Of a stretch of 64,000 nt of DNA, positions 4,188 through 58,566 are shown piece by piece. Where the stretch lies: positions 1 to 64,000 of the forward strand of contig JANSXP010000040.1 of NCBI GenBank assembly GCA_024742875.1, read 5' to 3'. This DNA comes from Planctomycetaceae bacterium (GTDB taxonomy: Bacteria; Planctomycetota; Planctomycetia; Planctomycetales; Planctomycetaceae). The notes beneath the pieces were generated by a model, which did not search any database, was not told the origin of the DNA, and was given only the letters and a program-made list of their open reading frames with translations. Position 1 is the stretch's first letter, and every line of letters starts with the position of its first letter. Both the position numbers and the translations under genes were made by a program.

Positions 4188-4972
4188 GCACCCAAGCGGA
4201 ACGCCAGAATGGGGAAAGCATGTCCGCACGCTTTGTCCTTGCTATCGGGCTTCTTGAAGAGATGGAACTTCTTCAGGTCCAGCATTCTGAGATCACAGCC
4301 ACTTTGGGCGAGCTGCATTGTGAGTTGGACACGATCAATGCAGGCGATGCGATGGGGATGAAAGTCCAGCTCCTTCGCGATGCCTGGCGGCATGAGCGGG
4401 TCGCTGCTGAGAAACTCCGTCAGCAGATCAAAGGACTGGAATACGACGTTACGGTCCTGAAGTCTAACCTCCGGCTGAAGGATGACTGCAGTGATCAGCT
4501 GAAAGCTGAACTGGCCCAAGTGTCCGACCTTCGGAGTCGCAACTCCCGATTGGTCAAGGCCAAGAAGGCTGCCAGGAGAGATATCGAGGCCCTGCAGGAG
4601 GGGGTACACAGGGAGGAGGTGAACCGAGACCACTGGAAGGCTGAGTGCATCAGAGCCCAAGAATCCGACATCGAAAATCGTCGGCTGGTTGATAAGTGGA
4701 AGCGCGCCTGCTGCGGCTGGGTATCCTGTTCCATTCTTGCTGTGTTCATTGGCATCGCTGGACTCGTTGCGGGGGCGATGTCACCGAATCAAATCAACGT
4801 GCCAGCCCCGACAGCACAGCACCGATACGTTCGTGAGGTCCGCGAACTGACCGACAGTGACAAGCCCCTTGGCATGCCACAGGAGGCGGGTCGAGTTGAG
4901 TACACGGCAGGGAACGGGCAGCGGCTTGTTGATGTCTGGGTTCGTGTGGAGCGGGAAGGCGGTGCGGAATGA
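4184..4972 (+). CDS. Coiled-coil protein with one transmembrane segment
   Basis: 262 residues. Residues 20 to 165 form a long charged helical region with heptad-like spacing of Leu and Ala, predicted coiled coil. A hydrophobic stretch (VSCSILAVFIGIAGLVAGAM) at about 178-197 would cross the inner membrane, followed by a 65-residue polar tail. The function is unknown; a membrane-anchored phage factor is the most that can be inferred. Start and stop are both coupled as ATGA overlaps with neighbours, and it ends in EGGAE. Confidence 0.65.
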   Translation: MSTQAERQNGESMSARFVLAIGLLEEMELLQVQHSEITATLGELHCELDTINAGDAMGMKVQLLRDAWRHERVAAEKLRQQIKGLEYDVTVLKSNLRLKDDCSDQLKAELAQVSDLRSRNSRLVKAKKAARRDIEALQEGVHREEVNRDHWKAECIRAQESDIENRRLVDKWKRACCGWVSCSILAVFIGIAGLVAGAMSPNQINVPAPTAQHRYVREVRELTDSDKPLGMPQEAGRVEYTAGNGQRLVDVWVRVEREGGAE

Positions 4973-5208
4973 GCACGTGGCAGAAGTGGCTGCAGGTAAT
5001 CTCCGCCAAGGTCATGGAGAGGCGACTGGCCGCAGGGATGACGCAGGAGCAGTTGGCAAAAAAGTCTGGCCTGCCTCTTGACTTCATCCAGCGGGTTGAA
5101 GCCGGCGAGCATAGCCCCGGCAACAAAGCACGGGCAAAGATGGCGGACGCACTGGGCGTTCACCCGAGGGTCTTCAGTCGCTGCAGATGTAAAGGTGGTG
5201 CGAAATGA
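4969..5208 (+). CDS. XRE-family helix-turn-helix regulator
   Basis: 79 residues with a complete Cro/C1-type HTH: VMERRLAAGMTQEQLAKKSG then LPLDFIQRVEAGEHSPG, followed by two more helices ending ALGVHPRVF. It has only the DNA-binding domain, as expected for a Cro-like protein. It is translationally coupled to the coiled-coil gene upstream and to a zinc-ribbon microprotein downstream, and its last codons (CKGGAK) repeat the tail of its neighbours. Likely a repressor acting within the element. Confidence 0.8.
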   Translation: MSTWQKWLQVISAKVMERRLAAGMTQEQLAKKSGLPLDFIQRVEAGEHSPGNKARAKMADALGVHPRVFSRCRCKGGAK

Positions 5209-5369
5209 CTTGGATAAGACATGAGCCTCCGCCGCCACCTCCCAACGGTTGTAGCTCTCCGCACTGCAGTCCACCGGGCCTTATTGCCCTTCCTCCTGGG
5301 ACCCACGTCTGGAGGTGCGAGGTCTGTGGAAAAGAGACAGTAGTCAACGTCGCCCGTGACAACCCCTAG
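5205..5369 (+). CDS. 54-residue Cys-rich microprotein (zinc ribbon-like)
   Basis: The ATG at 5205 overlaps the stop of the XRE gene (ATGA) and is preceded by an AAAGGTGG ribosome site inside that gene. The product begins MTWIRHEPPPPPPN, then carries CSSPHC and CEVCGK, giving a C-x4-C and C-x2-C arrangement suited to binding one zinc. A TAG at 5367 ends it. Short zinc ribbons of this type occur in phages as nucleic-acid or protein adaptors, but no specific family is recognised. Confidence 0.6.
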   Translation: MTWIRHEPPPPPPNGCSSPHCSPPGLIALPPGTHVWRCEVCGKETVVNVARDNP

Positions 5370-5457
5370 AGGTTGTATCCGCTGAAACAATCTTTTTCGG
5401 TTGTTTTCTGAACTCCCAAGTCCATCGCGAGGCCACCGGTCTGCGCCGAGAAAACAG

Positions 5458-7605
5458 ATGATCACTCCCGACTTTGAAACCCGATCCGAAGTAGACATCG
5501 TGAAATGTGGTGCTTCGGTCTACGCACGACACGAATCCACTGAGGTTCTGTGTCTGGCGTGGGTCGACGATTCGGGAGCGACTCATCTGTGGACTCGTGG
5601 TGATGCACCACCACAGAAACTCTTTGATGCGATTGCTCGTGGTGAACTGTTCGAAGCTCACAACGCAGCATTCGAACGACTCGTCTGGCGTTGGATCTGT
5701 CACGAACGATTTGGCTGGCCCGACGTGCCTTTTGAACAGTGGCGATGTACTGCCGCGGCCTGTGCCCGTCTCACTCTGCCCCGCAGTCTCGCAGGTGCCG
5801 GGGCGGCCCTTGGACTTGGCACTCAGAAAGATGACGAAGGTCATCGCCTGATGCTCAAAATGTGCAAGCCTCGGAAAGCCACGAAAGGCGATTCGAGCAA
5901 ATGGCACGAGTCCCCGGCAGAACTCCGACGTCTCTACCAATACTGTGAGCGGGACGTTGAGACTCAGCGACTTCTGAGTCAGACGGCTGATCCGCTCACA
6001 CCGTCAGAACTCAAAGTCTGGCAGCTTGATCAACGCATCAACCTTCGAGGCCTTCCCGTAGATCTCGAAGCCATCAATCAGGCCGCCGACATCGTGACCG
6101 CGGCGTCTTCCTCATTCGGTGATGAGATCAAGGCCCTCACGAATGGCGAAGTCGAAACTCCCAATCAGGTGGCCCGAATCAAGGCATGGGTTGCTGACCG
6201 CGGCGTAGCGCTGGACAGCCTCGGAAAAGATGTACTGGCTGAGGTGCTCGACAAAGACATCCCCGACGACGTTCGCCAGATCCTGACCATCCGTCAGCAG
6301 GCGTCAAAGTCATCCACGGCAAAGCTCAACGCCTTCCGTCTTCGCTGCGATAGCGATGGTCGGGTTCGCGGGAACCTCATGTATCACGGGGCTTCGACGG
6401 GGCGCTGGTCCGGCACTGGGATTCAGATCCAGAACTTCCCGCAAGGGAAGCTCAGCCAGGACGACATCGAGCTTGGTCACCGCCTGCTGAAACTCCGAAG
6501 CCCGGAACCGATCGACATGATCATCGGGAATCCGCTCGATGCGATCAGCAGCATGCTGCGATCGTTCATCCGGGCCGAAGATGGCAAGCGGCTGCTCGTT
6601 GGGGACTTCGCTTCGATCGAAGCCCGCGTCCTTGCATGGGTCGCTGAGCAAACCGATCTCCTCGCGATCTTTGAGTCCGGCGGTGACGTGTACAAAGTCA
6701 TGGCCTCGAAGATCTACGACGTGGAAGTCGACGAAGTCACAAAGCCACAGCGACAGATCGGCAAGATGGCGATCCTCGGCCTGGGCTACGGGATGGGCTG
6801 GAAAGCGTTTCGCTTGGCTTGCCGAACGATGGCCCGTGTCGAGATCTCTAAGAAGTTCGCGAAACAGGTCGTCTCAACTTACCGAGAATCGAACAGTCGG
6901 ATTCGGGAGTTCTGGAAAGAGTGCAACACCGCCGCCATTCGTGCCGTTCAAACTGGCAAGCCCCACTCCGTCGGCCGGCTGACATTTGAGGCAGACACTG
7001 ACTGGCTGAAGATCAAACTCCCCAGCGGTCGGCGGCTGCATTACCGAACCCCGAAGATCATCGAAGTCCGAGCCCCCTGGTCTGAGGGCTTCTATGGCGA
7101 AATCTACTTGCCAGGCGACGAAGGCAACATGGATCGCGTTCTCGATGTCCTCGAACGCGTCGACGCAGACGTGGGCGAGGTCTCTCCCGATCACATCGAG
7201 GTTGAGCACATTCCCAAGAATGTTGATCTCGCGGGCCTGATCCGGGCACTGGGCCCAGCCGCGAACGCTGAGTTCGAAGAGAAGGAACCGGAGTACGTTC
7301 CACAGGTCCGGTATATGTCCAACATCATGGGCAATCGGTGGGGCTGGGATCGGACCTACGGCGGCAAGCTGACTGAGAACGTTGTGCAGGCCATCGCCCG
7401 CGATTTCCTTTGTGAGTCAATGCTGCGGCTCGAAGACCACGGCTATCCGATCATCGCGACGGTCCACGACGAAGTGATCATCGAACTGCCCGAGGGTGAA
7501 GGAACCCTCGACGAATTCATCGAACTGCTTTCAACAGTTCCGCGATGGGGCAGCGGTTGCCCAATCGCCTCCGAGGGTTACGAAGCCAAACGCTACAGAA
7601 AGTAG
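5458..7605 (+). CDS. Phage family A DNA polymerase with 3'-5' exonuclease domain
   Basis: 715 residues from the ATG at 5458. The N-terminus opens with DFETRS, exonuclease motif I of phage PolA enzymes. The polymerase domain has motif A GDFASIEARVLAW near residue 381, motif B (RQIGKMAILGLGYGMG) near 430 and motif C VHDE near 668, all with the expected acidic and Lys/Tyr residues. There is no 5'-3' exonuclease domain, as usual for phage replicases. About 70 residues near 545-620 (from APWSEGFYGEIYLPGDEGN) look like a lineage-specific insertion. It should copy the element's genome together with the helicases and Prim-Pol downstream. Confidence 0.92.
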   Translation: MITPDFETRSEVDIVKCGASVYARHESTEVLCLAWVDDSGATHLWTRGDAPPQKLFDAIARGELFEAHNAAFERLVWRWICHERFGWPDVPFEQWRCTAAACARLTLPRSLAGAGAALGLGTQKDDEGHRLMLKMCKPRKATKGDSSKWHESPAELRRLYQYCERDVETQRLLSQTADPLTPSELKVWQLDQRINLRGLPVDLEAINQAADIVTAASSSFGDEIKALTNGEVETPNQVARIKAWVADRGVALDSLGKDVLAEVLDKDIPDDVRQILTIRQQASKSSTAKLNAFRLRCDSDGRVRGNLMYHGASTGRWSGTGIQIQNFPQGKLSQDDIELGHRLLKLRSPEPIDMIIGNPLDAISSMLRSFIRAEDGKRLLVGDFASIEARVLAWVAEQTDLLAIFESGGDVYKVMASKIYDVEVDEVTKPQRQIGKMAILGLGYGMGWKAFRLACRTMARVEISKKFAKQVVSTYRESNSRIREFWKECNTAAIRAVQTGKPHSVGRLTFEADTDWLKIKLPSGRRLHYRTPKIIEVRAPWSEGFYGEIYLPGDEGNMDRVLDVLERVDADVGEVSPDHIEVEHIPKNVDLAGLIRALGPAANAEFEEKEPEYVPQVRYMSNIMGNRWGWDRTYGGKLTENVVQAIARDFLCESMLRLEDHGYPIIATVHDEVIIELPEGEGTLDEFIELLSTVPRWGSGCPIASEGYEAKRYRK

Positions 7606-7610
7606 GTGCC

Positions 7611-7874
7611 ATGGCCGGGAAGAAAAAGAAGATCTCGCCGCTCGACATCGAGTTCGCTGGGAAGTCACCGCGAAAGACGTGGTTCGACAAGATCACAGAC
7701 AAAGCGTTTCGCGTGTTCCTCATCGAGGCCCGCGACCTGTTCCGAAACGGGAATCTGCCCAACGTGTCCGGACCACGAGATTTCTATCGCTTCGCGTTGA
7801 AGTCTCGTGATGAACACTGGCCTGGTGTTGATCTGCCCGCAGAACAAGCATTCGGAAGGTGGGCAAATGCGTAA
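7611..7874 (+). CDS. Hypothetical basic phage protein
   Basis: 87 residues from the ATG at 7611, five bases after the polymerase stop and preceded by GTAGGTGCC. The N-terminus is Lys-rich (MAGKKKKIS), followed by FAGKSPRKTWFDKITDKAFRV. No family recognised; the charge suggests nucleic-acid contact. The next gene starts inside its last codons, so the two are translated together. Confidence 0.6.
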   Translation: MAGKKKKISPLDIEFAGKSPRKTWFDKITDKAFRVFLIEARDLFRNGNLPNVSGPRDFYRFALKSRDEHWPGVDLPAEQAFGRWANA

Positions 7875-9087
7875 GCGTATCAATCCCGCAGACGTTGCGA
7901 TGGAGCACTCGTCAAAGCCAGCCGAGTCTTACGAAAAGGTCGAGCCCAAATACTCGGCCCACGGACTGAGCCTGAACGTTGAGTCGCTGACGCCGATCCA
8001 GACCGCAGCTGACGCAATGGAGAAGGCAGGTCTCGATCCTGCTCGTTGGGAACCCATCGAGATCGAAGCCAGTTCCTGGACTGTACCGGTCAAGAAGAAG
8101 GCCGGGGACGGTAGCAACACAATCGAAGAGGTCGAATGTTGGCGGGTGAAGATTCGGTGTAAGCCGCTTCTGCCTGACTGGGCCTACACGGCCACGAATC
8201 GACTCACCGAGCGAATCAAAGGCCTCTCTGGGCCATTCCCGCCCGTCAAGTATTCACGAAAGCGAAAGGGTCGCTGCGTTCTGGAGATCGCGATAAGCGA
8301 CATCCACGCCGGCAAGTTCGCGATCGACGGGACTTGGTCGTTGGCGGAGTTCGAGACGGCGTTTGCCCGAACTGTTGATTTCATGATCGACAAGTGTGTC
8401 GGTCGGAACCTCGCTGAGATCATCCTGCCCATCGGAAACGATATGCTCAATGTCGACACGGCGATGATGACCACGACGCGGGGAACGCCTCAGGGCGGCC
8501 GCTGTACTTTCGCGGACATCTACAGTTCGAGCATGTGGGCGACGATCAGGGCCGTCGAGCGTTGCCGCGAGGTTGCCCCGGTTCGCGTAATCCATGTTCC
8601 GGGCAATCACGACTGGAGCAGTTCTCGGCATGTCGTGGAAGCTGTCGGTGCGGTCTTCCACAAGACGAAGGGTGTGTCGGTTGATCTGTCGGAGGAGTAC
8701 GGCGGCGGGCGGAAGTATTACCACAACGGCGTGATCCTGATCGGCTACGCCCACGGCAACAACGAGAAGGCCACCGCTCTGCCTGGGATCATGGCCAACG
8801 AAGTCCCTGAGCTTTGGAGTCAGGCGACCTGCCGCGAATTCCATATTGGTCACCGCCATTTCCGATCAGCGAAGCGAACCAAGTACAGCATCAACGATGC
8901 CGCTCCGTATCTCGAACACGAAGGCGTGCTGATTCGTCAGCTGTCTTCAATCAGTCCTGATGATCACTACCACAAGATCCAGGGCTACGTCGGCTCCGCT
9001 CGTGTGAACGAAGCCTTCCTCTACGACCTTGACTTTGGAATCGACTCCGTCTTCACCGTGCCCTACGCACGCGTGGTGGGCAAATAG
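7867..9087 (+). CDS. Calcineurin-like metallophosphoesterase
   Basis: 406 residues from the ATG at 7867, with GGAAGGTGGGC as ribosome site within the previous gene. The dimetal phosphoesterase motifs appear in order: ISDIHAGKF (D-x-H) near residue 142, GNDMLN near 193, PGNHDWSS (GNHD/E) near 245, YAHGNNEK near 297 and IGHRHF (GHxH) near 328. The N-terminal 130 residues are a less conserved extension. Phage members of this family are SbcD-like nucleases or phosphatases; a role in DNA processing is likely from context, but no SbcC partner is present. Confidence 0.85.
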   Translation: MRKRINPADVAMEHSSKPAESYEKVEPKYSAHGLSLNVESLTPIQTAADAMEKAGLDPARWEPIEIEASSWTVPVKKKAGDGSNTIEEVECWRVKIRCKPLLPDWAYTATNRLTERIKGLSGPFPPVKYSRKRKGRCVLEIAISDIHAGKFAIDGTWSLAEFETAFARTVDFMIDKCVGRNLAEIILPIGNDMLNVDTAMMTTTRGTPQGGRCTFADIYSSSMWATIRAVERCREVAPVRVIHVPGNHDWSSSRHVVEAVGAVFHKTKGVSVDLSEEYGGGRKYYHNGVILIGYAHGNNEKATALPGIMANEVPELWSQATCREFHIGHRHFRSAKRTKYSINDAAPYLEHEGVLIRQLSSISPDDHYHKIQGYVGSARVNEAFLYDLDFGIDSVFTVPYARVVGK

Positions 9088-49545: not shown

Positions 49546-50718
49546 GTGACAACCATCTGCACACCGGACATGATTCCGTTCCCTGCCGGATCCACGGCAT
49601 CCACACCGCACTGCGGTCGTGTGCTGCATGTGGTGAACGGTCAGCACTACGCGGGCGCTGCACGCGTTCAGGACCTGCTGGCGCTGAAGTTGCCCGGCTG
49701 CGGTTTTGACGTGTCATTTGCCACGCTGCTGCCAGGCCGTTTTGAATCTGAACGTCGTTCGCAGACGCCGCTGCACCACATTCCTATGCACGGCCGGCTG
49801 GATCTTCGTCCCGTCCGACAACTGGTCCATCTGATTCGTGAGGGCGGGTTTGATCTGGTGCATTCGCACACAACGCGATCGGCGCTGGTGGCCGCTGTGG
49901 CCGCTGCGTGGGCCCACGTGCCGTACGTCCATCATGTGCACTGCCAGATGGATACAGAAGTTGGTCGAACACTGGGGAGCCGGGCCAACCGGACGATCGA
50001 AAAACAGGCCTGTCGCCGTGCGGACGGAGTGATTGCCGTCTCGCAGAGCATTGCCGCGTTTCTGCGGCGTCATCGCTTCTCAAAAGGGCCCGTCAGTGTG
50101 GTGCCCAATGGCGTGCCCGCGATCGACGTGCGACGGCCCCGCCGAGCCGAGGATCCCTGGGTAATCGGCATGGTGGCACTGCTGCGGGAACGCAAAGGGC
50201 TGGAAACACTGCTGATGGCGCTGCCGGCCCTCAACCGCGATCATCATGTTCGGCTGCGAATTGTGGGGCCGTTTGAATCCGACGGCTATCGCAATCGAAT
50301 GTATGATCTGAGTGACAGCCTGGGCGTCACTGACCTGGTGGACTGGACGGGGTATACGCCAGATGTGCCCACCGAACTGAATCGAATGGACGCGCTGGTG
50401 CTGCCCAGCGTGCTTCCGGAGGGCATGCCGATGGTGCTGCTGGAGGCCATGGCGGCTGGCGTACCCGTGCTCGGCAGTCGGGTGGACGGCATCACGGATG
50501 TGATCGAGCACGAACGTACCGGTCTGCTGTTTGAGCCAGGCTGTCCCAATTCGCTGGCGGGACAGCTGCTGCGTTTGCTGCGCGGACAGACAAACTGGCA
50601 GATGCTCAGAGAGGCGGCGCACAGTCAGTACCGCCAGCATTTTTCGGATGCTGCGATGGCACGAGGTGTCGCGCGGGTGTATTCGCGGATTCTCGTTCAG
50701 CGGGAGATAAAGTCATGA
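49546..50718 (+). CDS. Family 4 glycosyltransferase
   Basis: 390 residues from a GTG at 49546 preceded by AGGA; an ATG at 49486 would overlap the previous gene by 44 bases. GT-B fold: RVLHVVNGQHYAGAARVQDLL (N-terminal loop), LVHSHTTRSALVAAVAA, VSVVPNGVPAIDVRRP, WVIGMVALLRERKGLETLL and the donor-binding LPEGMPMVLLEAMAAGVPVL with the E-x7-E pair, then HERTGLLFEPG. It is a retaining glycosyltransferase for repeat-unit assembly. Its stop overlaps the next start as ATGA. Confidence 0.9.
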   Translation: MTTICTPDMIPFPAGSTASTPHCGRVLHVVNGQHYAGAARVQDLLALKLPGCGFDVSFATLLPGRFESERRSQTPLHHIPMHGRLDLRPVRQLVHLIREGGFDLVHSHTTRSALVAAVAAAWAHVPYVHHVHCQMDTEVGRTLGSRANRTIEKQACRRADGVIAVSQSIAAFLRRHRFSKGPVSVVPNGVPAIDVRRPRRAEDPWVIGMVALLRERKGLETLLMALPALNRDHHVRLRIVGPFESDGYRNRMYDLSDSLGVTDLVDWTGYTPDVPTELNRMDALVLPSVLPEGMPMVLLEAMAAGVPVLGSRVDGITDVIEHERTGLLFEPGCPNSLAGQLLRLLRGQTNWQMLREAAHSQYRQHFSDAAMARGVARVYSRILVQREIKS

Positions 50719-51665
50719 CAGTGCCGTGCAGTCCGAGTGCTGAGTCGCGCCGGTCCGAAGTGCCCGCCGATCTGCGGGGGCAGTCTCCTGTAATGGCGCG
50801 ATGGCATCAATGGAAAGCGGCCGCCGTTGTTCGTGGCTGTGTGCCTTTGCAGCGCACACTGCCGTCACCCCGCGCACAGCTGCCTGGCATCCTGATGTAT
50901 CATCGCGTCGTGCCCGACACCCTGCCGGCCGGCGTGCCAAAACCAACGTGGAACGTGACGCCCGATCAGTTCGACCGTCAGCTCCGGGGACTGCTGCAGC
51001 GAGGCTATCAGCCGTGGCGTCTCTCGGATCTGTTGACGGCCGATGCGCGGCAGATTCCCAGCAACGTCTTTGTCGTTACGTTTGACGACGGCTACGCCAA
51101 TAATCTCGTCCACGCTGTGCCCATCCTCAAAGAGCTGCAGATCCCGGCCACCATTTTTCTGGCGACCGGATTTCTGGACAGTGATCGCCCTTTCCCGTTT
51201 GATGACTGGTCGGCGAAGGGCGGCGACACGGTTGATCAGATCACCTGGAGGGCGCTCACGCGACGGGAATGTGAACAGTGCCTGGCAAGTGGCGTGGTGG
51301 AATTCGGATCGCACACACATACGCATGAAGATTTTCGAGATCGCCCGGACGATTTTGCCGAGAGTCTGGAGCTGAGCGGTGACTACCTGCGACGGGAATT
51401 TGGCATTCGTCGTCCCGCTCTTTCTTTGCCTTATGGAATTGTCAACCGGGGGTTTGCCGGACCGTCGTGGTATGCGGCCGCCCGGCAGGCCGACCTCACC
51501 TGCTGCCTGACGACGGAGGAACAGCTGGTTGATCTGACGCAGTCTCCGTTTGGCTGGGGGCGATTCATTGCCGAGCAGCACGACACGGCCGGTACACTGG
51601 GAGTGAAACTTGACGGCTGGCGTGATGTGGCCCGCGATGTGTGGCGTCGCGTACGAGGGCAGTGA
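50715..51665 (+). CDS. Polysaccharide deacetylase (NodB type), second copy
   Basis: 316 residues coupled to the previous gene. Canonical motifs: ILMYHRVVPDTLP, FVVTFDDGYANNLVHAVPIL and VEFGSHTHTHEDF, with LPYGIVNRGF and SPFGWGRF near the end. It is clearly paralogous to the deacetylase encoded four genes upstream but retains the standard DDG sequence. It closes the rightward biosynthetic run. Confidence 0.88.
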   Translation: MTVPCSPSAESRRSEVPADLRGQSPVMARWHQWKAAAVVRGCVPLQRTLPSPRAQLPGILMYHRVVPDTLPAGVPKPTWNVTPDQFDRQLRGLLQRGYQPWRLSDLLTADARQIPSNVFVVTFDDGYANNLVHAVPILKELQIPATIFLATGFLDSDRPFPFDDWSAKGGDTVDQITWRALTRRECEQCLASGVVEFGSHTHTHEDFRDRPDDFAESLELSGDYLRREFGIRRPALSLPYGIVNRGFAGPSWYAAARQADLTCCLTTEEQLVDLTQSPFGWGRFIAEQHDTAGTLGVKLDGWRDVARDVWRRVRGQ

Positions 51666-51685
51666 GTCCACCGTCGGGATGGCAT

Positions 51686-52762
51686 TCAGACCGCACGGCC
51701 GCGGCCCTGAGCCAGTGCAGCGGCCGTTAGGATGGCTTCCTGCATGCCGGATGCGTCTGCCGGGGTGTCCGCCTGCCACGCTCTGTCAAACGCGGTGCCG
51801 TGAGTGGGGCTGGTGCGAACAATGGGCAGTCCCAGGGTGATGTTGACGGCCGCATCAAAGCCAATCATCTTGATGGGAATGTGACCCTGGTCGTGGTACA
51901 TGGCGACAATGCCGTCAAACTCGCCCGCCACCGCGCGACGCATCAGGGTGTCAACCGGCAGCGGACCATGCACATCCATGTTTGCACGCGCAGACTCAAC
52001 GGCTGGTGTGATGATGGTTTGCTCTTCGTCCCCAAACAGTCCCTGTTCGCCTCCGTGGGGGTTCAGTGCGCAGACGGCGATTGATCTTCTGGGGGCCTTC
52101 AGGTCCTGCAGAAAGCCGTCCATCAGCGCGATTTTTTCCGAGACGGCGTCCGCCGTCAGCAGTCCGGGCACACTGGCGATGGATGTGTGCAGCGTGACGT
52201 GAGCGATGCTCAATCCGGATCGTGGCTGATGTGTGCGGTGTGGGGCAACCAGTTGACGCAGCGGCGCGATGCGCTGTTCGCACAGGTGCAGCATCATGGC
52301 GAAGTCATTCACGTCGCATTGTGCGGCGAGGATTTCTGTATGGCCGGGATAGTCGTGGCCGGCTGCGTGCAGCGCTGCTTTGTTGAGTGGCGCCGTGGCA
52401 ATGGCTTCGACCGCGCCCTGTTGTGCCAGATCAATGGCTGCCAGCAGGTAACGCCAGGCAGCCTCGCCAGCCACGACTTCCACCTGAGCGGTGGTTGGCA
52501 GCGGCGGGCCGTCGGGCCACGGGTCCAGCACGGCCGTCGCCTCGGCCGGAACGTGACGCATGGCAGCCGGGGAGTCGACGGGGAACAGGTTGACATCGGG
52601 CAGCTGTCGCAGCTGCGCAGCCTGCTGAATGATGTCCGCACTTCCGATGATCAGAGGGCGGCAGGCGCCTCGCACGTCTGAGGAGGTCACCGCACGGGCG
52701 ACAATTTCCGGCCCGATGCCGCAGACGTCCCCCAGGGTGATGGCGATGACAGGTTGCTTCAT
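51686..52762 (-). CDS. pdxA: 4-hydroxythreonine-4-phosphate dehydrogenase
   Basis: 358 residues from the ATG at 52762, with GGAGAG nine bases upstream. PdxA signatures: ITLGDVCGIGPEIVARA (usually GDPxGIGPE; here Val-Cys), TAPLNKAALHAAGHDYPGHTEILA, VTLHTSIASVPGLL, ALNPHGGEQGLFGDEE, GIVAMYHDQGHIPIKM and SPTHGTAFDRAW with metal-binding His and Asp. It catalyses a step of the deoxyxylulose-5-phosphate-dependent pyridoxal phosphate pathway in the cytoplasm. It converges on the deacetylase gene with a 20-base gap. Confidence 0.93.
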   Translation of the reverse strand: MKQPVIAITLGDVCGIGPEIVARAVTSSDVRGACRPLIIGSADIIQQAAQLRQLPDVNLFPVDSPAAMRHVPAEATAVLDPWPDGPPLPTTAQVEVVAGEAAWRYLLAAIDLAQQGAVEAIATAPLNKAALHAAGHDYPGHTEILAAQCDVNDFAMMLHLCEQRIAPLRQLVAPHRTHQPRSGLSIAHVTLHTSIASVPGLLTADAVSEKIALMDGFLQDLKAPRRSIAVCALNPHGGEQGLFGDEEQTIITPAVESARANMDVHGPLPVDTLMRRAVAGEFDGIVAMYHDQGHIPIKMIGFDAAVNITLGLPIVRTSPTHGTAFDRAWQADTPADASGMQEAILTAAALAQGRGRAV

Positions 52763-52983
52763 GAGGTGACTCTCCGGAAACGCCACGGGCGCTGGCTGGG
52801 GCGCAGTCTAACGCCTGGCTGTCGCGGGCGCTCGGTTAACCGACGGATTTCAAACGGGAATCACCAACCACCTTGAGGTGCATGGTTTGAGCAGAACCCG
52901 CATGGCCGATAACCTGTGCATTCCTGACCGGCATTCCGGCGGTCGCTTCGCACCATCCCAGGTTTCTTCCCCGGCCTCACGTT

Positions 52984-53283
52984 ATGACGCTCGACGAACT
53001 GCAGCAGATGATCGACCAGATGTACTCACGCAAGGACGAAGCGCGGGGGGTGGAAGGAACGTTCATGTGGCTGATGGAAGAAATCGGTGAACTGGCCGCC
53101 GCCCTGCGGGAATCACCCAAAGAAGAAGTGGCAAAGGAGTTTGCCGATGTGCTGGCCTGGCTGGCCACAATCGCCAACGTAGCGGGAATCAACCTGACAG
53201 AGGCGATGGAACTCAAGTATGGCAGCGGATGCCCTGGTTGCGGTCAAATGGTCTGTGAGTGTTCGGACGAGGAAAAGCCGTAA
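52984..53283 (+). CDS. MazG-like nucleotide pyrophosphohydrolase with Cys-rich tail
   Basis: 99 residues. The MazG fold shows as TFMWLMEEIGELAAAL (E-E-x-x-E) near residue 27 and EFADVLAWLATIAN (E-x-x-D) near 52, together forming the Mg-binding site that hydrolyses nucleoside triphosphates. The C-terminal tail CPGCGQMVCEC carries four Cys, a probable zinc knuckle. A house-cleaning role for non-canonical nucleotides is likely. It converges on the Rdx gene. Confidence 0.82.
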   Translation: MTLDELQQMIDQMYSRKDEARGVEGTFMWLMEEIGELAAALRESPKEEVAKEFADVLAWLATIANVAGINLTEAMELKYGSGCPGCGQMVCECSDEEKP

Positions 53284-53378
53284 GCGGGACGCGAGAGGGC
53301 TCATTGCAGTGGCTGACCGTTCTGGAGTTTTTGTGATGAACGGCCGCCAGCTGTCGCGCTGCTGGCCGAGGCCCGCGC

Positions 53379-53415
53379 AAAAAAACAGCGTTCCGGCAGT
53401 GATGACAGAACGCTG
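53379..53415 (-). terminator. Intrinsic terminator of the Rdx/SelW-like gene
   Basis: CAGCGTTC and GAACGCTG form an 8-bp stem with a 14-base loop, followed on the minus strand by seven T residues. It begins 10 bases after the TAA of the selenoprotein candidate, indicating that this interrupted frame is a real transcription unit. Confidence 0.88.
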
Positions 53416-53425
53416 AGATGGACGC

Positions 53426-53638
53426 TTACAGCTGCTCGAGGATTTCCTCGTCTTTTGGGAAACGCAGTGTCTCGTGCTTGCTGTAGATCACTTTGCCATC
53501 GACTTCGACATCAAAAATGCCTCCCTTGCCGGGAATCAGTTCTGCGTCAACGCCTTTGGCTGACTTGATGGCGGCCGCCAGACTGGTGGCCTGTGGCGTG
53601 TAGTTTCACATCGTGCAATAGGTGATTTTGATCTGCAT
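53426..53638 (-). CDS. SelW/Rdx-family protein with in-frame TGA, probable selenoprotein
   Basis: Reading from the ATG at 53638, codons 1-10 give MQIKITYCTM, codon 11 is TGA (53606-53608), then NYTPQATSLAAAIKSAKGVD and on through GGIFDVEVDGKVIYSK to TAA at 53426: 70 residues counting Sec. This matches Rdx (SelW/SelT/SelH) proteins, thioredoxin-like redox factors with a CxxC or CxxU motif after the first strand. The TGA sits exactly at the second redox position (C8-T9-M10-U11) while the rest of the frame is intact. A hairpin 15-33 bases after the TGA and a terminator behind the gene support expression. A nonsense pseudogene or sequencing error is the alternative. Gene callers would truncate or skip it. 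Confidence 0.78.
53573..53591 (-). promoter_or_regulatory. SECIS-like hairpin downstream of the in-frame TGA
   Basis: Starting 15 bases after the TGA, GGCC-A-CCA pairs with UGG-C-GGCC (seven pairs, one A-C mismatch) around the apical loop GUC. Bacterial SECIS elements lie within the coding region just after UGA, with a G-U in the apical loop read by SelB; distance and loop fit that pattern. Confidence 0.55.
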
Positions 53639-53807
53639 TGTTTGGTGCCTGTAGGGAAGGTTTCGGATACGACCAAAGAAGATAATAGCGAACCGCGAGA
53701 CGGGAAAACACCGCAGTTCGTGTGCCGCCCGCCGCCGGAGAACAGGACGCTTTGACGGTTTGCCGCCTTACAGTTAGTCTCGTGGTTTTCAACAGGGGAA
53801 AACGGCG

Positions 53808-54854
53808 ATGTTGCGGAGACTGGTTGCGTGTTTGTTGCCTGCGGTCCTGATATCTGTGGCCTGTGCTGACGGAAATGACGGACGTCTGGATATCTACTTC
53901 ATTGATGTGGAAGGCGGAGCCGCCACGCTGCTGGTGTCGCCGGCAGGAGAATCCATCCTCATCGACTCGGGATATCCGGATAACCATGGTCGCGATCGGG
54001 ATCGAATTATTGATGTGGCCAGAAATGTGGCCGGATTGTCACGCATCGATCACGCGCTGGTCTCGCACTGGCATCGTGATCACTATGGCAATCATGCGGC
54101 CCTGGCGGCCGCCTTTGGCATTGAGACCTTCTGGGATCGGGGGATACCGGAGATGCTGTCCGAAGACGCGCAGTTTGAAGATCGGATTGCCGCTTACCGC
54201 GCGGCCACTCAGAATGCGTCCTGCAAACTGAAGGCGGGTGATCAAATTCCGTTTCAGTCTGCGGACACCCCGTTTTCCGCCAGGGTGCTGGCCGCCAGTC
54301 GCCAGGTGGTACCCAACGACGGTCCGGTCAATCCGTACGCCGATCGTCATACACCGCGGGATGTTGATCCCACTGACAATGCGGCGAGCCTGGCTGTGGT
54401 GTTCGAGTTTGGCAATTTTCGGTTCCTGTGCTGCGGCGATCTCACATGGAACGTGGAAGGGCAACTGGTCACGCCGAACAATCCGGTGGGGACCGTGGAC
54501 GTCTACATGGTGACGCATCATGGGCTGCCCACGAGTAACAATCCGGCGCTGGTGCTGGCTGTGGATCCGACGGTCACTGTGATGTGCAACGGGCCGACTA
54601 AAGGCGGAGCGGAGTCCACGCTCCGCACACTGCACGAAATCAAGTCTTTGCAGGACATGTATCAGCTGCACCAAAACGTGAAGCTGGACGCTGGAGCTCA
54701 GGCTCCGCCGGAGTTCATTGCCAACACGAGCAGCACAGCAACGTGCCAGGGTCAGTGGGTCAAAGCCAGTGTGGCCAAAGATGGCCGCTCATATACCATG
54801 CAGATTGGCCGCGAAGGCAGGGTGCGCACCTATCAGACGCGCGTCCACAATTGA
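53808..54854 (+). CDS. Secreted MBL-fold metallohydrolase (ComEC-like)
   Basis: 348 residues with a signal peptide (MLRRLVACLLPAVLISVACA). The beta-lactamase fold shows DIYFIDVEGGAATLLVSPAG (the ComEC/Rec2 opening), ILIDSGYPDN, the metal-binding VSHWHRDHYGNH, a later FRFLCCGDLTWN with a ligand Asp, and VTHHGLPTSNNP with a ligand His. The substrate is unknown; related proteins are nucleases or phosphodiesterases. It diverges from the selenoprotein candidate, sharing a 169-base promoter region. Confidence 0.88.
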   Translation: MLRRLVACLLPAVLISVACADGNDGRLDIYFIDVEGGAATLLVSPAGESILIDSGYPDNHGRDRDRIIDVARNVAGLSRIDHALVSHWHRDHYGNHAALAAAFGIETFWDRGIPEMLSEDAQFEDRIAAYRAATQNASCKLKAGDQIPFQSADTPFSARVLAASRQVVPNDGPVNPYADRHTPRDVDPTDNAASLAVVFEFGNFRFLCCGDLTWNVEGQLVTPNNPVGTVDVYMVTHHGLPTSNNPALVLAVDPTVTVMCNGPTKGGAESTLRTLHEIKSLQDMYQLHQNVKLDAGAQAPPEFIANTSSTATCQGQWVKASVAKDGRSYTMQIGREGRVRTYQTRVHN

Positions 54855-54871
54855 TCAAAGAGCAGCACTGC

Positions 54872-56710
54872 TTATTCCGGCGGCTTGCCACCGTCGAGCT
54901 CATCCTGCCATTGTTCCAGTTGCTGCCACTTGCCCTCATGCGCCAGCTGCGCCTGTTTGGCCCAGGTCAGCGGGTTGTGCATGCGGAATCGGGGGCCCGC
55001 GTCTTCCAGAATCTGCTGCAGCTGTGCTGTGTCTGCCTGGGCCAGCGCGGCCCATGTGGTGATGCCGGCCGCCTGAATCAGCTCTGCGATTTTCGGGCCG
55101 ATGCCTTCCACGATTTTCAGATCGTCCTGTTGGGGCAGTTTCTTACCGCGAAACGTCTGTTTGACGGGATCTTCCACGCCGCTTGTGGCGAGGTCCGCGG
55201 CCGCCGGGGAGACTGCCGTGTTTTTCGTTGCCGGTCCGGGCGGCCGTGTCTGGCTGGTCCTGACGGCAAATGATGGCGTCGGTTGTCCTCTGCGACTGGT
55301 GGCGCGACCGGTCCGCTGCCGATTCTTCAGTGTCCGCTGTTGCATGGAAGACGTGCGGGCTTTGCTGCTGACTGTGCGACGGCCTCGTGATCGCACGGCT
55401 GATCTGATCGCAGCGGTTGCAGAAATCCTGGATCCCTCAGACGGAACAGACGCTGCCGCCGAGTTCCCGTCGATGTCTGGTGACGCCGCATCAGGTAGAC
55501 TCGTGTCTGCGTTGGTCTCTCCGTTTGCGTCTGAGTTATCGGTTGGGGCTGTTGTGTCAGCTGCTTCCGCTGCGCCCGCCATTGACCTGTCTGCGTCAGT
55601 AGCAGGCTGTTTTGGGGGAACCGTCTGAGCCTGTTCACGGACCTGGGCAAACCGCGATCCGGGCGTGGCGGTTGCAACAGTGCCGTCACTCGCCTGCGCG
55701 TAAACCTGCTGCAGAGCGGACTCTGTTTCGCCAGGTGGCGCAGAGGGAACGACAGGCGTGGCTGCCAGAGGGACCGTGGACGCTCTGTCATCCCTGGCTG
55801 CGGACTGTTCGGGTGGCGTTGCTTCAGGGGAACTGGATTGTTGTGTGGCAGCAGCTCCTGCTGCGGTGCCCGCCGTTGCCGCCGGTCCGGTTCCAGCTGT
55901 TGCGGCGACCGTCGAGGCGGCTGTGGCTGCCGCCGACTGAGCGCGGATCTGATCGAGCGGGTTGGACGCCGATCGTGTTTCAGGCTCGGGCTTTGCCGGC
56001 GCATCATCGTCAGATGGGCCCGCATCGTCAGATGGGCCCGCATCGGCAGATGGGCCCGCATCGGCAGGTGCCGCTGCTGCCTGAGCGCGAATCTGATCGA
56101 GCGGACTGCCGGTCGCTGGAGCCGACGCTGCTGGCGTGGGCTGCGGCGGTGCCTGGGGGCTGGCTGCGGCCGCGCGAATCTGATCTAACGGGTTGGCACG
56201 GACTGGTGGCTTTGATTCAGATTCGGTCTTCTTTGCAGATCCCGCACTGCGAATCTGATCCAGCGGGCTGGCGGCTTTGCCCTTCCCGCCGCCGCGAATC
56301 GCATCCAGCGGATTGACGTTTGACGTTGCTGACCTGGCACTGGACTGTGTCGTGCCTTTGGCACCGCCAGCGCGAATGGCGTCCAGCGGGCTGCCGGCCT
56401 GGGCGTTCGCTGGCTTTGCGCTCGCGGCTGGCTTGTTCGCGGGGGCCGCTGGTTTTGCGGTCTGTGCTTTGGCTTCGGCCTGCTTCGCCAGTTCGGCCGT
56501 ATCGACGACGGTGACAAACTGAGGATCGACGTCGTACCAGCTGATGTCCGCGGGGCAGTCGAATTCGATCAGTAGTCGGCAGTTCATGTTGACGGTCTTT
56601 ACCTGACCGACGAGTCCCTGAAATCGCCTCAGTTCGGGCACGCCTTCGAGCACCATCACATGACGATCGGTCCATTCTCGCTTGAGCTGTTCGGCAAGCT
56701 GGATCGACAT
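54872..56710 (-). CDS. Scaffold-like protein: conserved N-domain, six PLDxIR repeats, HhH C-terminus
   Basis: 612 residues. The N-terminus (about 1-70: LKREWTDRHVMVLEGVPELRR, then VNMNCRLLIEFDCPADISWYDVDP) is a compact domain. A long Ala/Pro/Thr-rich disordered region contains six copies of the motif [SN]PLD[AQ]IR (about residues 105-260) and short DAGPSD repeats. The C-terminus (about 520-600: LKIVEGIGPKIAELIQAAG) is a helix-hairpin-helix domain of the DUF4332 type, as in L21-fusion proteins, likely to bind nucleic acid. The repeated motif suggests multivalent docking of one partner. No specific function is known to me. Confidence 0.75.
   Translation of the reverse strand: MSIQLAEQLKREWTDRHVMVLEGVPELRRFQGLVGQVKTVNMNCRLLIEFDCPADISWYDVDPQFVTVVDTAELAKQAEAKAQTAKPAAPANKPAASAKPANAQAGSPLDAIRAGGAKGTTQSSARSATSNVNPLDAIRGGGKGKAASPLDQIRSAGSAKKTESESKPPVRANPLDQIRAAAASPQAPPQPTPAASAPATGSPLDQIRAQAAAAPADAGPSADAGPSDDAGPSDDDAPAKPEPETRSASNPLDQIRAQSAAATAASTVAATAGTGPAATAGTAAGAAATQQSSSPEATPPEQSAARDDRASTVPLAATPVVPSAPPGETESALQQVYAQASDGTVATATPGSRFAQVREQAQTVPPKQPATDADRSMAGAAEAADTTAPTDNSDANGETNADTSLPDAASPDIDGNSAAASVPSEGSRISATAAIRSAVRSRGRRTVSSKARTSSMQQRTLKNRQRTGRATSRRGQPTPSFAVRTSQTRPPGPATKNTAVSPAAADLATSGVEDPVKQTFRGKKLPQQDDLKIVEGIGPKIAELIQAAGITTWAALAQADTAQLQQILEDAGPRFRMHNPLTWAKQAQLAHEGKWQQLEQWQDELDGGKPPE
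56011..56064. repeat. 18-bp tandem repeat inside the scaffold gene
   Basis: Three near-identical 18-bp units (CAGATGGGCCCGCATCGT/G) encode repeated Asp-Ala-Gly-Pro-Ser-Asp/Ala on the minus strand. In-frame repeats of this kind alter protein length without frameshift. Confidence 0.8.
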
Positions 56711-56913
56711 TCTCTTATCCTTTTGGTCAGCAGTCCTAAGTCAGGCCCGACCGCATTATCGTCACGATGCGGTTGAATACAACGCATGGCTTCGGCGCGA
56801 AAGCGTTCTGTACCCGCTGTCGCGCCGGGTAAGGCAGGGACCGGGCACCTCGGCCCCGGCGATCCGGTGGCATGGCCCAACGACTGTGCTTTCACCGCCG
56901 GTGAGTGTTGTTG

Positions 56914-58566
56914 TCAGCGCTGTTCTGCGTCCAGCTCGGCGGCTTCGGCCGCGCTCAGCAGACCATCTTTGTCTTTGTCCAGACGAGCAAAGACATCCCG
57001 CGGTCCGAGAAACTCGCGCTGCGAAACATCGCGGTCCTGGTTGCGGTCCATTCGTCGAAACCACTCCGGTCCCTCAAGGCCCGACAGACCTGGCAGAATG
57101 GCGTCCGTGCTGCCAGTCTGCATGTTCATGTTCCGCATGGAGCTCATGCGCATCGCCTCGTTCTGCCCAAGGCTGATTTTCAGAGCGTAGGCGGTGCCGA
57201 GCTCTTCTTCCGTGAGCTGGCCGTCTTTGCTCAGGTCGTATTCGGCCAGTGCCGCAAATCCGGTCTGCAGTTCACGACGCGACAGCCGCCTGTCGGAATT
57301 CACATCCAGCAGTTTGAACAGTGTCTTGCCATCCTGCTTTACGGAAACATCAATGCGGCTTTGCGTCGCAATGTTGTCGCGTTCGATGTAGTTGCGGATC
57401 TCTTCCCGATTGACCATTTCGTCGTTGTTCATGTCAACATCCTGAAAGCTGCCGTTGACCTGAATCTGCGCCAGTTGCTGCTGCATCTGCGGAAATTCGT
57501 CCTCAGACAGATAGCCGTTTTTGTCGCTGTCGTATCCGGAGACATACTGCAGCACAAAGTTGACCATAATGCTGCGGGTCCCCTTGCCGCCGCCATAGGC
57601 CCGCAGTCCAATCGGCATGCCGTCAATAATCAGGCGGCCCCGATCACGTGACTCACCGTTAAACTGGCAGAAGTCTGTTGTGTCCGGCAGATCGACAGTC
57701 AGGGCACTGCGTCCAGCGCGGTCAGATAACTGAAAGTTGAGCGTCAGGTGGGTCGGGCAGTCAGATACAAGGCCGACAATCTCTGCCACCTGCAGTCGAC
57801 CATCTTTCGATGTGTCAAACTTCGCTGTCTCCGGCAGCCGGAGACTGTCCAGCGGAATGGATGATCCATCGCCGTAGCGGGCGCAGATTTTTTCCGCACC
57901 TCGCTGAATGGTTTGCTGATCTGTCAGCTGCAGAAAGGGGAGGTCGGCAGCGTCCGGCACAACGGCCGCCTGCTGATTGCGGGGATCGCGAAACGGCATC
58001 AGCTCCGAGGCGGTAAACGTCTCGTCATTGTCCAGGTCACGGAACCGCATGGTGTAGACAGCGTTTCGGACCTCCTGTTCTGAGATCCGGCCATCATCAT
58101 TGGCGTCAATGTGGGCTGCCAGGCGAACAGCCTCCGACGCCTGTACGGCGCCAGCCACCACGTTGAAACCCCGGTCAAGCTGTTGCGAGAACCATGCATG
58201 AAACACGTCGGCGACAACACTGGTGGCCGATTTGTCCTGGCTCGCCTTTCGCATCATTCGTTTGGGGCTGCCGGCCTGAGCCTGTGCGACCAGACGATCG
58301 GGGATGAGCTGCAGTTCGCTGACAGACAGTTCACCGTCCCGATTGGTGTCGATGGTTTTGGCGAGAAAGCGGGTGACCCACATCTGATACGGATCGCCAT
58401 CGACCGTAATGTTGACTTCGGCCAGCACGGGGCCGGCGGGGGCCATCACCAGCATGACTGTTTTGTCTGTCGGCTGACCAGCGGCGCACGGGCCAGCGAG
58501 CAGGCTCACGGAAGCCAGCACACCCAAAGCTGTCAGGAGTCGATACATGGTGAGTTTTTCCAACAT
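56914..58566 (-). CDS. Exported protein with ten EF-hand-like loops
   Basis: 550 residues from the ATG at 58566, chosen for GAGGGAA upstream; an in-frame Met six codons on is possible. A signal peptide (MYRLLTALGVLASVSLLAG) is followed by ten calcium-binding-type loops, among them DTNRDGELSVSEL, DANDDGRISEQEV, DTSKDGRLQVAEI, DSDKNGYLSEDEF, DVNSDRRLSRREL, DLSKDGQLTEEEL and DKDKDGLLSAAEA. Some (DLDNDETFTASEL, DMNNDEMVNREEI) lack the central Gly and may not bind. It probably is a periplasmic or surface calcium-binding protein; no catalytic domain is seen. Confidence 0.85.
   Translation of the reverse strand: MLEKLTMYRLLTALGVLASVSLLAGPCAAGQPTDKTVMLVMAPAGPVLAEVNITVDGDPYQMWVTRFLAKTIDTNRDGELSVSELQLIPDRLVAQAQAGSPKRMMRKASQDKSATSVVADVFHAWFSQQLDRGFNVVAGAVQASEAVRLAAHIDANDDGRISEQEVRNAVYTMRFRDLDNDETFTASELMPFRDPRNQQAAVVPDAADLPFLQLTDQQTIQRGAEKICARYGDGSSIPLDSLRLPETAKFDTSKDGRLQVAEIVGLVSDCPTHLTLNFQLSDRAGRSALTVDLPDTTDFCQFNGESRDRGRLIIDGMPIGLRAYGGGKGTRSIMVNFVLQYVSGYDSDKNGYLSEDEFPQMQQQLAQIQVNGSFQDVDMNNDEMVNREEIRNYIERDNIATQSRIDVSVKQDGKTLFKLLDVNSDRRLSRRELQTGFAALAEYDLSKDGQLTEEELGTAYALKISLGQNEAMRMSSMRNMNMQTGSTDAILPGLSGLEGPEWFRRMDRNQDRDVSQREFLGPRDVFARLDKDKDGLLSAAEAAELDAEQR

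Follow-up and report, generated by a model that had tools for sequence, protein, structure and literature searches.

A gene on the minus strand of the window, by which we mean the whole 64,000-nucleotide stretch of planctomycete DNA analyzed here, almost certainly encodes a 70-residue thioredoxin-fold Rdx/SelW-like selenoprotein in which selenocysteine (Sec) is inserted at UGA codon 11 by way of SelB and a hairpin. The frame, the conservation of its TGA codon, a conserved and covarying hairpin and a complete set of Sec genes were computed directly, and the fold was predicted. A sequence-only reading had proposed a hidden SelW/Rdx selenoprotein with a CxxU motif at this place, and the conserved TGA, the Sec gene set, the covarying hairpin and the co-occurrence of gene and Sec system among relatives support that proposal. 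The features discussed are collected in Table 1.

Table 1. Positions of the Rdx gene, its associated elements and further TGA-bearing genes of the same genome
Feature	Position	Strand	Remarks
Rdx (SelW-like) CDS	53426..53638	minus	70 codons + TAA; codon 11 is TGA, presumably read as selenocysteine
In-frame TGA, codon 11, putative Sec of the CxxU motif	53606..53608	minus	41 of 43 homologous loci have TGA here, the remaining two TGT/TGC
Cys8 (TGC), other CxxU residue	53617-53615	minus	the same Cys in all 32 aligned sequences
Putative bacterial SECIS hairpin	53573..53591	minus	arms 53591-53584 and 53580-53573; GUC apical loop 53583-53581
Terminator-like hairpin and T run	53379..53415	minus	after the stop codon; hairpin 53415-53386
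Six TGA-bearing AhpC-TSA (thioredoxin-fold) genes	contigs C42, C57, C22, C20, C13, C77 of G000 (own genome; L063-L068)
Formylmethanofuran dehydrogenase subunit B, contig-end fragment	contig C125 of G000 (own genome; L069)		TIGR03129 448.9 bits, cut-off 327.8

Translated on the minus strand from the ATG at 53638, the frame stays open past the TGA to the TAA at 53428-53426, and the single TGA is its sole interruption. Re-reading the coordinates bore out the claim that this TGA falls exactly at the second redox position of a 70-codon Rdx frame; with U at the TGA the product is MQIKITYCTMUNYTPQATSLAAAIKSAKGVDAELIPGKGGIFDVEVDGKVIYSKHETLRFPKDEEILEQL. When the TGA is read as Cys, the translation scores above the curated cut-offs of Pfam Rdx (PF10262; 66.5 bits against 22.6), TIGR02174 (54.2 against 34.2) and NF041051 (90.8 against 88), which places it in the Rdx / SelT-SelW-SelH family, the identity first assigned to it. 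Both Cys8 and position 11 (TGA again taken as Cys) are invariant in the 32 sequences, out of 43 loci carrying the gene, that were aligned for structure modelling. In the AlphaFold2 model (mean pLDDT 94.0) and the alignment, the CxxC/CxxU motif follows the first strand (residues 3-8) of a thioredoxin-like fold. Among solved structures the model is closest to 2fa8, a SelW-related protein of Agrobacterium (Foldseek E 5.6e-08, TMq 0.91), which has Cys at the aligned position where the window gene has TGA. The Cys-form Rdx structures 2fa8, 2oka, 2ojl, 2p0g and 3dex share this fold (profile match 72.1 bits), with mouse SelW, 2npb, a weaker match (TMq 0.57, 31.7 bits); at 70 residues the window protein is shorter than the 96-108 residue chains of known Rdx/SelW structures.

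The position of the TGA is shared with homologs in other genomes. In a set of 98 genomes, the genome of the window included, we found 49 Rdx matches in 42 genomes, of which 34 contain one TGA and 15 are stop-free; not one of the 49 contains an internal TAA or TAG. The TGA form is present in 32 of the 98 genomes. The window's own genome has a single Rdx match, the TGA-bearing one, and among eight genomes of the same genus five have a TGA-Rdx, one has a fragment cut at a contig start and two have no match. Codon 11 was read by residue in 43 homologous loci, made up of 30 of the 49 matches and 13 further loci, and it is TGA in 41 of them and TGT or TGC in the other two; a UGA thus stands at a conserved redox position that is occupied by Cys in other homologs. 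In their first 200 bases three of the 41 TGA loci are copies of others, so 38 distinct TGA genes remain. Two relatives carry a second TGA-bearing Rdx match (G057:C172 and G042:C190), and in five (G016, G017, G030, G050 and G057) a stop-free Rdx accompanies the TGA form.

Downstream of the TGA the gene is under purifying selection: eight comparisons that involve the window gene give pN/pS values of 0.23-0.36; these exact ratios are rough because pS is 0.65-0.88 and synonymous sites are near saturation. Five closer pairs among the relatives give post-TGA pN/pS values of 0.09-0.19. One nonsense codon in an otherwise complete frame could also arise if TGA had replaced a Cys codon, by mutation or by misreading, in a dead gene or in an intact Cys gene. 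Such a pseudogene or sequencing error is highly improbable, given that 41 of 43 homologous loci, drawn from many assemblies, share this TGA codon, that selection is purifying beyond it, that the hairpin is conserved and that the genome has the full Sec gene set. A chance nonsense mutation, it had been argued, would hardly fall on this residue; in the relatives, where TGA scattered over other positions, or other frame breaks, would have counted against the proposal, we found the same codon and no other stop.

The search of the genome for selA, selB, selC and selD that had been suggested as a check found all four. The window is contig C61 of an assembly of 8.18 Mb in 168 contigs (98.1% complete, 2.05% contamination), in which one tRNA-Sec match exceeds the gathering score (77.8 bits against 47) and is also called by ARAGORN as tRNA-SeC with anticodon tca. 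Matches above cut-off were obtained for SelB (334.8 bits), SelA (485.5 bits) and SelD (256.3 bits), the last in the C-terminal part of a 725-residue frame that overlaps SelA. The selA and selD genes lie on contig C22, adjoining an AhpC-TSA gene, selB lies on contig C157 and tRNA-Sec on contig C46. On the minus strand of locus L018 the overlapping frames occupy 4588-6765 and 6762-8207; the SelD part of the 725-residue frame has a Cys-type CGC motif, and its N-terminal part presumably resembles an NADH dehydrogenase-like flavoprotein. The frames near selB and tRNA-Sec resemble what we take to be DUF1559-type proteins, common in planctomycetes. Since the Sec genes sit on separate contigs of one assembly, some room is left for foreign contigs, against which the co-occurrence of TGA-Rdx and Sec genes in relatives argues.

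This co-occurrence is strong. SelB is found in 30 of the 32 TGA-Rdx genomes and in 18 of the 66 others (Fisher p 1.6e-10, with the genomes taken as independent, though they are related), and a tRNA-Sec above 60 bits in 28 of the 32 and 19 of the 66. Either one is found in 31 of the 32 genomes with TGA-Rdx, compared with 19 of the 66 others. The exception, G093, has a TGA-Rdx, no SelB match and a tRNA-Sec match of just 52.6 bits, which may reflect an assembly gap or a decayed Sec system; likewise, SelB was not found in G055, nor a tRNA-Sec match in G006, G017 and G050, and assembly gaps may account for what is missing in all five genomes. None of the eight genomes whose only Rdx is a stop-free one reaching the motif region gave a SelB match (E up to 1e-60) or a tRNA-Sec match (E up to 1e-8); G001 and G082, whose only Rdx match is a fragment without the motif, were set aside from this group, and both have SelB. 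A further 16 SelB-bearing genomes are without any Rdx match, so Rdx is not the sole Sec user of the group.

These distributions bear on whether the UGA might be a true stop, yielding a 10-residue peptide, or might undergo low near-cognate readthrough (as Trp) to give a regulated product. TGA is the stop codon of five of the seven neighboring ORFs (five of which have Pfam families), as would suit such a reading, and it is accordingly an ordinary stop here and not a reassigned codon. Termination or simple readthrough at codon 11 is nonetheless very improbable: TGA-Rdx tracks SelB and tRNA-Sec over the 98 genomes, with both absent from the eight stop-free-only genomes, the two stop-free homologs read by residue carry Cys at codon 11, and the hairpin fits the rules for SECIS elements.

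Further genes with an in-frame TGA were found in the same genome. Of 40 AhpC-TSA matches, six have one TGA in the matched domain and 34 have none; the motifs around the six TGAs, redox-like as judged by eye, are TGGU, UPVC, UPFC, UFC, UPRC and CLTU, and these six genes are likely to encode selenoproteins. Nine of ten formate dehydrogenase-type matches are without TGA, and the tenth is the contig-end FmdB fragment, whose in-frame TGA lies in HTSLUHGP and which is also a likely selenoprotein. Together these are seven extra genes whose TGA probably occupies a redox or metal-ligand position and, with Rdx, eight candidates, a count that covers the AhpC-TSA, Rdx and formate dehydrogenase-type families and the sel genes only. 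Several genes with in-frame TGA could also be expected had TGA been reassigned to an amino acid genome-wide, as in codes 4 or 25. The chance of this is close to nil, as TGA ends most of the neighboring ORFs, most AhpC-TSA matches are free of it, and the TGAs that do occur are single and at likely redox or metal-ligand Cys positions, as is expected of Sec. On the evidence given for each, pseudogene, assembly error, simple readthrough and code reassignment are all rejected.

The putative SECIS hairpin has the position and the loop first claimed for it: the stem begins 15 bases past the TGA and is capped by a 3-nt GUC loop, with 22 nt from UGA to loop and an energy of -11.3 kcal/mol. One A.C mismatch lies inside the stem, which has seven standard pairs, three above and four below the mismatch. 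A published rule for bacterial SECIS elements, in the available part of its source, specifies an apical loop of 3-9 nt with G in the first two bases, an upper stem of 4-16 bp, a distance of 16-37 nt from the UGA and a minimum free energy of at most -7.5 kcal/mol (PMC13188914). The window hairpin agrees with the rule as given there, with its 4-16 bp part only if the three upper and the four lower pairs are taken together. No Rfam match was found in 50000-57000 at E up to 1. Taken alone, the hairpin does not exceed its own dinucleotide shuffles in stability (z -0.15, with 79 of 200 as stable). Since single-hairpin shuffles gave no signal, we used comparative and synonymous-recoding tests, and it is from the comparative ones that the hairpin draws its significance.

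Starting at the TGA, 51 bases can be aligned gap-free across the 38 distinct TGA genes. They contain a recurrent hairpin with eight pair positions and an (A/G)GUYUG apex, in which 86.8% of the 304 cells are paired. Cells changed on both sides number 23 against a shuffled mean of 10.1 (0 of 500 shuffles as high), and the covariation score is 0.278 against a shuffled mean of 0.164 (again 0 of 500 as high), falling to 0.060-0.096 when the pairing is slid; four pairs show double-sided change, a number equalled by 97 of 500 shuffles. Five of the eight pairs are recovered by RNAalifold on its own. Columns 21/33, both at third codon positions, are never broken in the 38 genes (CG 30, GC 3, UG 3, UA 2), and substitutions at columns 23/31 (CG 22, UA 10, UG 6) change the protein sequence as well. 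Pairing is missing from columns 19/35 in 9, from 18/36 in 13 and from 22/32 in 17 of the 38 genes, and the A.C mismatch of the window gene sits at 22/32. Relative to synonymous recodings, the natural genes form a mean of 6.95 of the eight pairs against 5.01 (the top of 300 set means is 5.42), with a mean hairpin energy of -10.1 against -6.1 kcal/mol (lowest set mean -7.2 kcal/mol). Gene by gene the margin is modest: more than 5% of the synonymous recodings are at least as stable in 21 of the 38 genes, the value for the window gene being 1%. The four core pairs appear in the minimum-energy fold of 31 of the 38 genes when 51 bases from the TGA are folded and of 29 when 66 bases are folded, and neither of the two Cys-codon genes shows the recurrent hairpin when folded.

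Sec insertion, SelB binding, redox chemistry and cellular location are what we infer from these results and from the family. SelA and SelD would make Sec-tRNA-Sec on the genome's own tRNA-Sec, SelB would bind the hairpin and deliver selenocysteine at UGA codon 11 in place of termination, and translation would then continue from Sec11 to the TAA. Cys8 and Sec11 of the CxxU motif may form a reversible selenenyl-sulfide and engage in thiol/selenol redox exchange, as suggested by the family, and the protein probably acts in the cytosol. Sec decoding and termination compete at UGA codons. One variant of this mechanism draws on that competition and on the genome having no second, stop-free Rdx as backup, and would make the UGA a selenium-gated switch, with Sec inserted when selenium is ample and termination otherwise, so that dose is controlled and the product is not a constitutive redox protein. 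The five relatives that possess an additional stop-free Rdx speak against such a switch, which we consider unlikely, and we retain the Rdx/SelW-like selenoprotein as the preferred reading.

In the available parts of the respective articles, SelW-like proteins with CxxU outnumber every other selenoprotein family in the Sargasso Sea metagenome (48 sequences; PMC1088965) and in the GOS metagenome (427 sequences; PMC2398784). The bacterial SelW-like selenoproteins (pfam10262, Rdx), as far as described in the accessible portions of PMC1088965, PMC2398784, PMC9312934, PMC13188914 and PMC1794560, belong to the same family as the window protein, have Sec at the second CxxU position and, as in the window gene, a hairpin shortly past the UGA. 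In those same portions, the function of bacterial SelW-like proteins is called unclear, with an interaction with glutathione mentioned (PMC1088965), and the functions of such selenoprotein families are described as still to be established (PMC13188914). Unlike the published SelW-like cases, the window gene is in a planctomycete with a full Sec gene set in the same genome. Planctomycetes go unmentioned in the main texts of PMC1088965, PMC2398784, PMC9312934 and PMC13188914 and in those of PMC5029168, PMC12013277 and PMC5330540; the available part of PMC1794560 has a single mention, listing them with phyla that are represented by just one or two genomes and excepted from the presence of SelD.

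The suggestion that the gene may be new for its lineage holds in part. Use of Sec by planctomycetes has been published: selenoprotein and Sec-insertion genes were reported in 2016, in the part of the article available, for the planctomycetes P1 and P2, which share the phylum and the Sec gene set with the present genome, and the Sec-form fmdB of P2 (section 17) has a counterpart in the TGA-bearing fmdB-type fragment found here (PMC4807772). That section names fdhA and fmdB, and the main text contains neither 'SelW' nor 'Rdx'. A search of main texts in part of the literature, supplements lying outside it, found no named planctomycete Rdx selenoprotein and nothing linking Fuerstiella with selenocysteine. 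SelW-like CxxU selenoproteins and planctomycete Sec use are thus already known, and the window gene adds one more well supported member. An in-frame TGA makes a gene easy to overlook or to annotate as truncated; this one was found by reading the raw sequence and withstood the genomic tests applied to it. It points to a selenium-using planctomycete lineage with eight candidate selenoprotein genes and may be useful in tracing marine selenium use. As a tentative joint reading, to which we would give a little less than an even chance, the class (probably Planctomycetia) may be rich in selenoproteins, overlooked so far, and be among the sources of the abundant pool of marine SelW-like proteins, its TGA-Rdx genes may share a distinct SECIS subclass with a 3-nt GUY loop, and the Sec form may be ancestral there, the stop-free-only genomes being those without a Sec system and some Sec users keeping both forms.

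In the immediate surroundings of the gene, no promoter was found when 53200-53900 was scanned. When the proteins encoded on either side (MazG, metallo-beta-lactamase and PdxA) were searched by tblastn (E up to 1e-5) against the 42 other loci, with flanks of about 1.5 or 3 kb and some shorter, none gave a match, and with no conserved neighbors we propose no operon partner. The strong terminator claimed past the TAA was found as a terminator-like hairpin of 10 pairs followed by seven T (-16.0 kcal/mol with four of the following T); it is unlisted by the automatic scan, which takes loops of 3-8 bases only.
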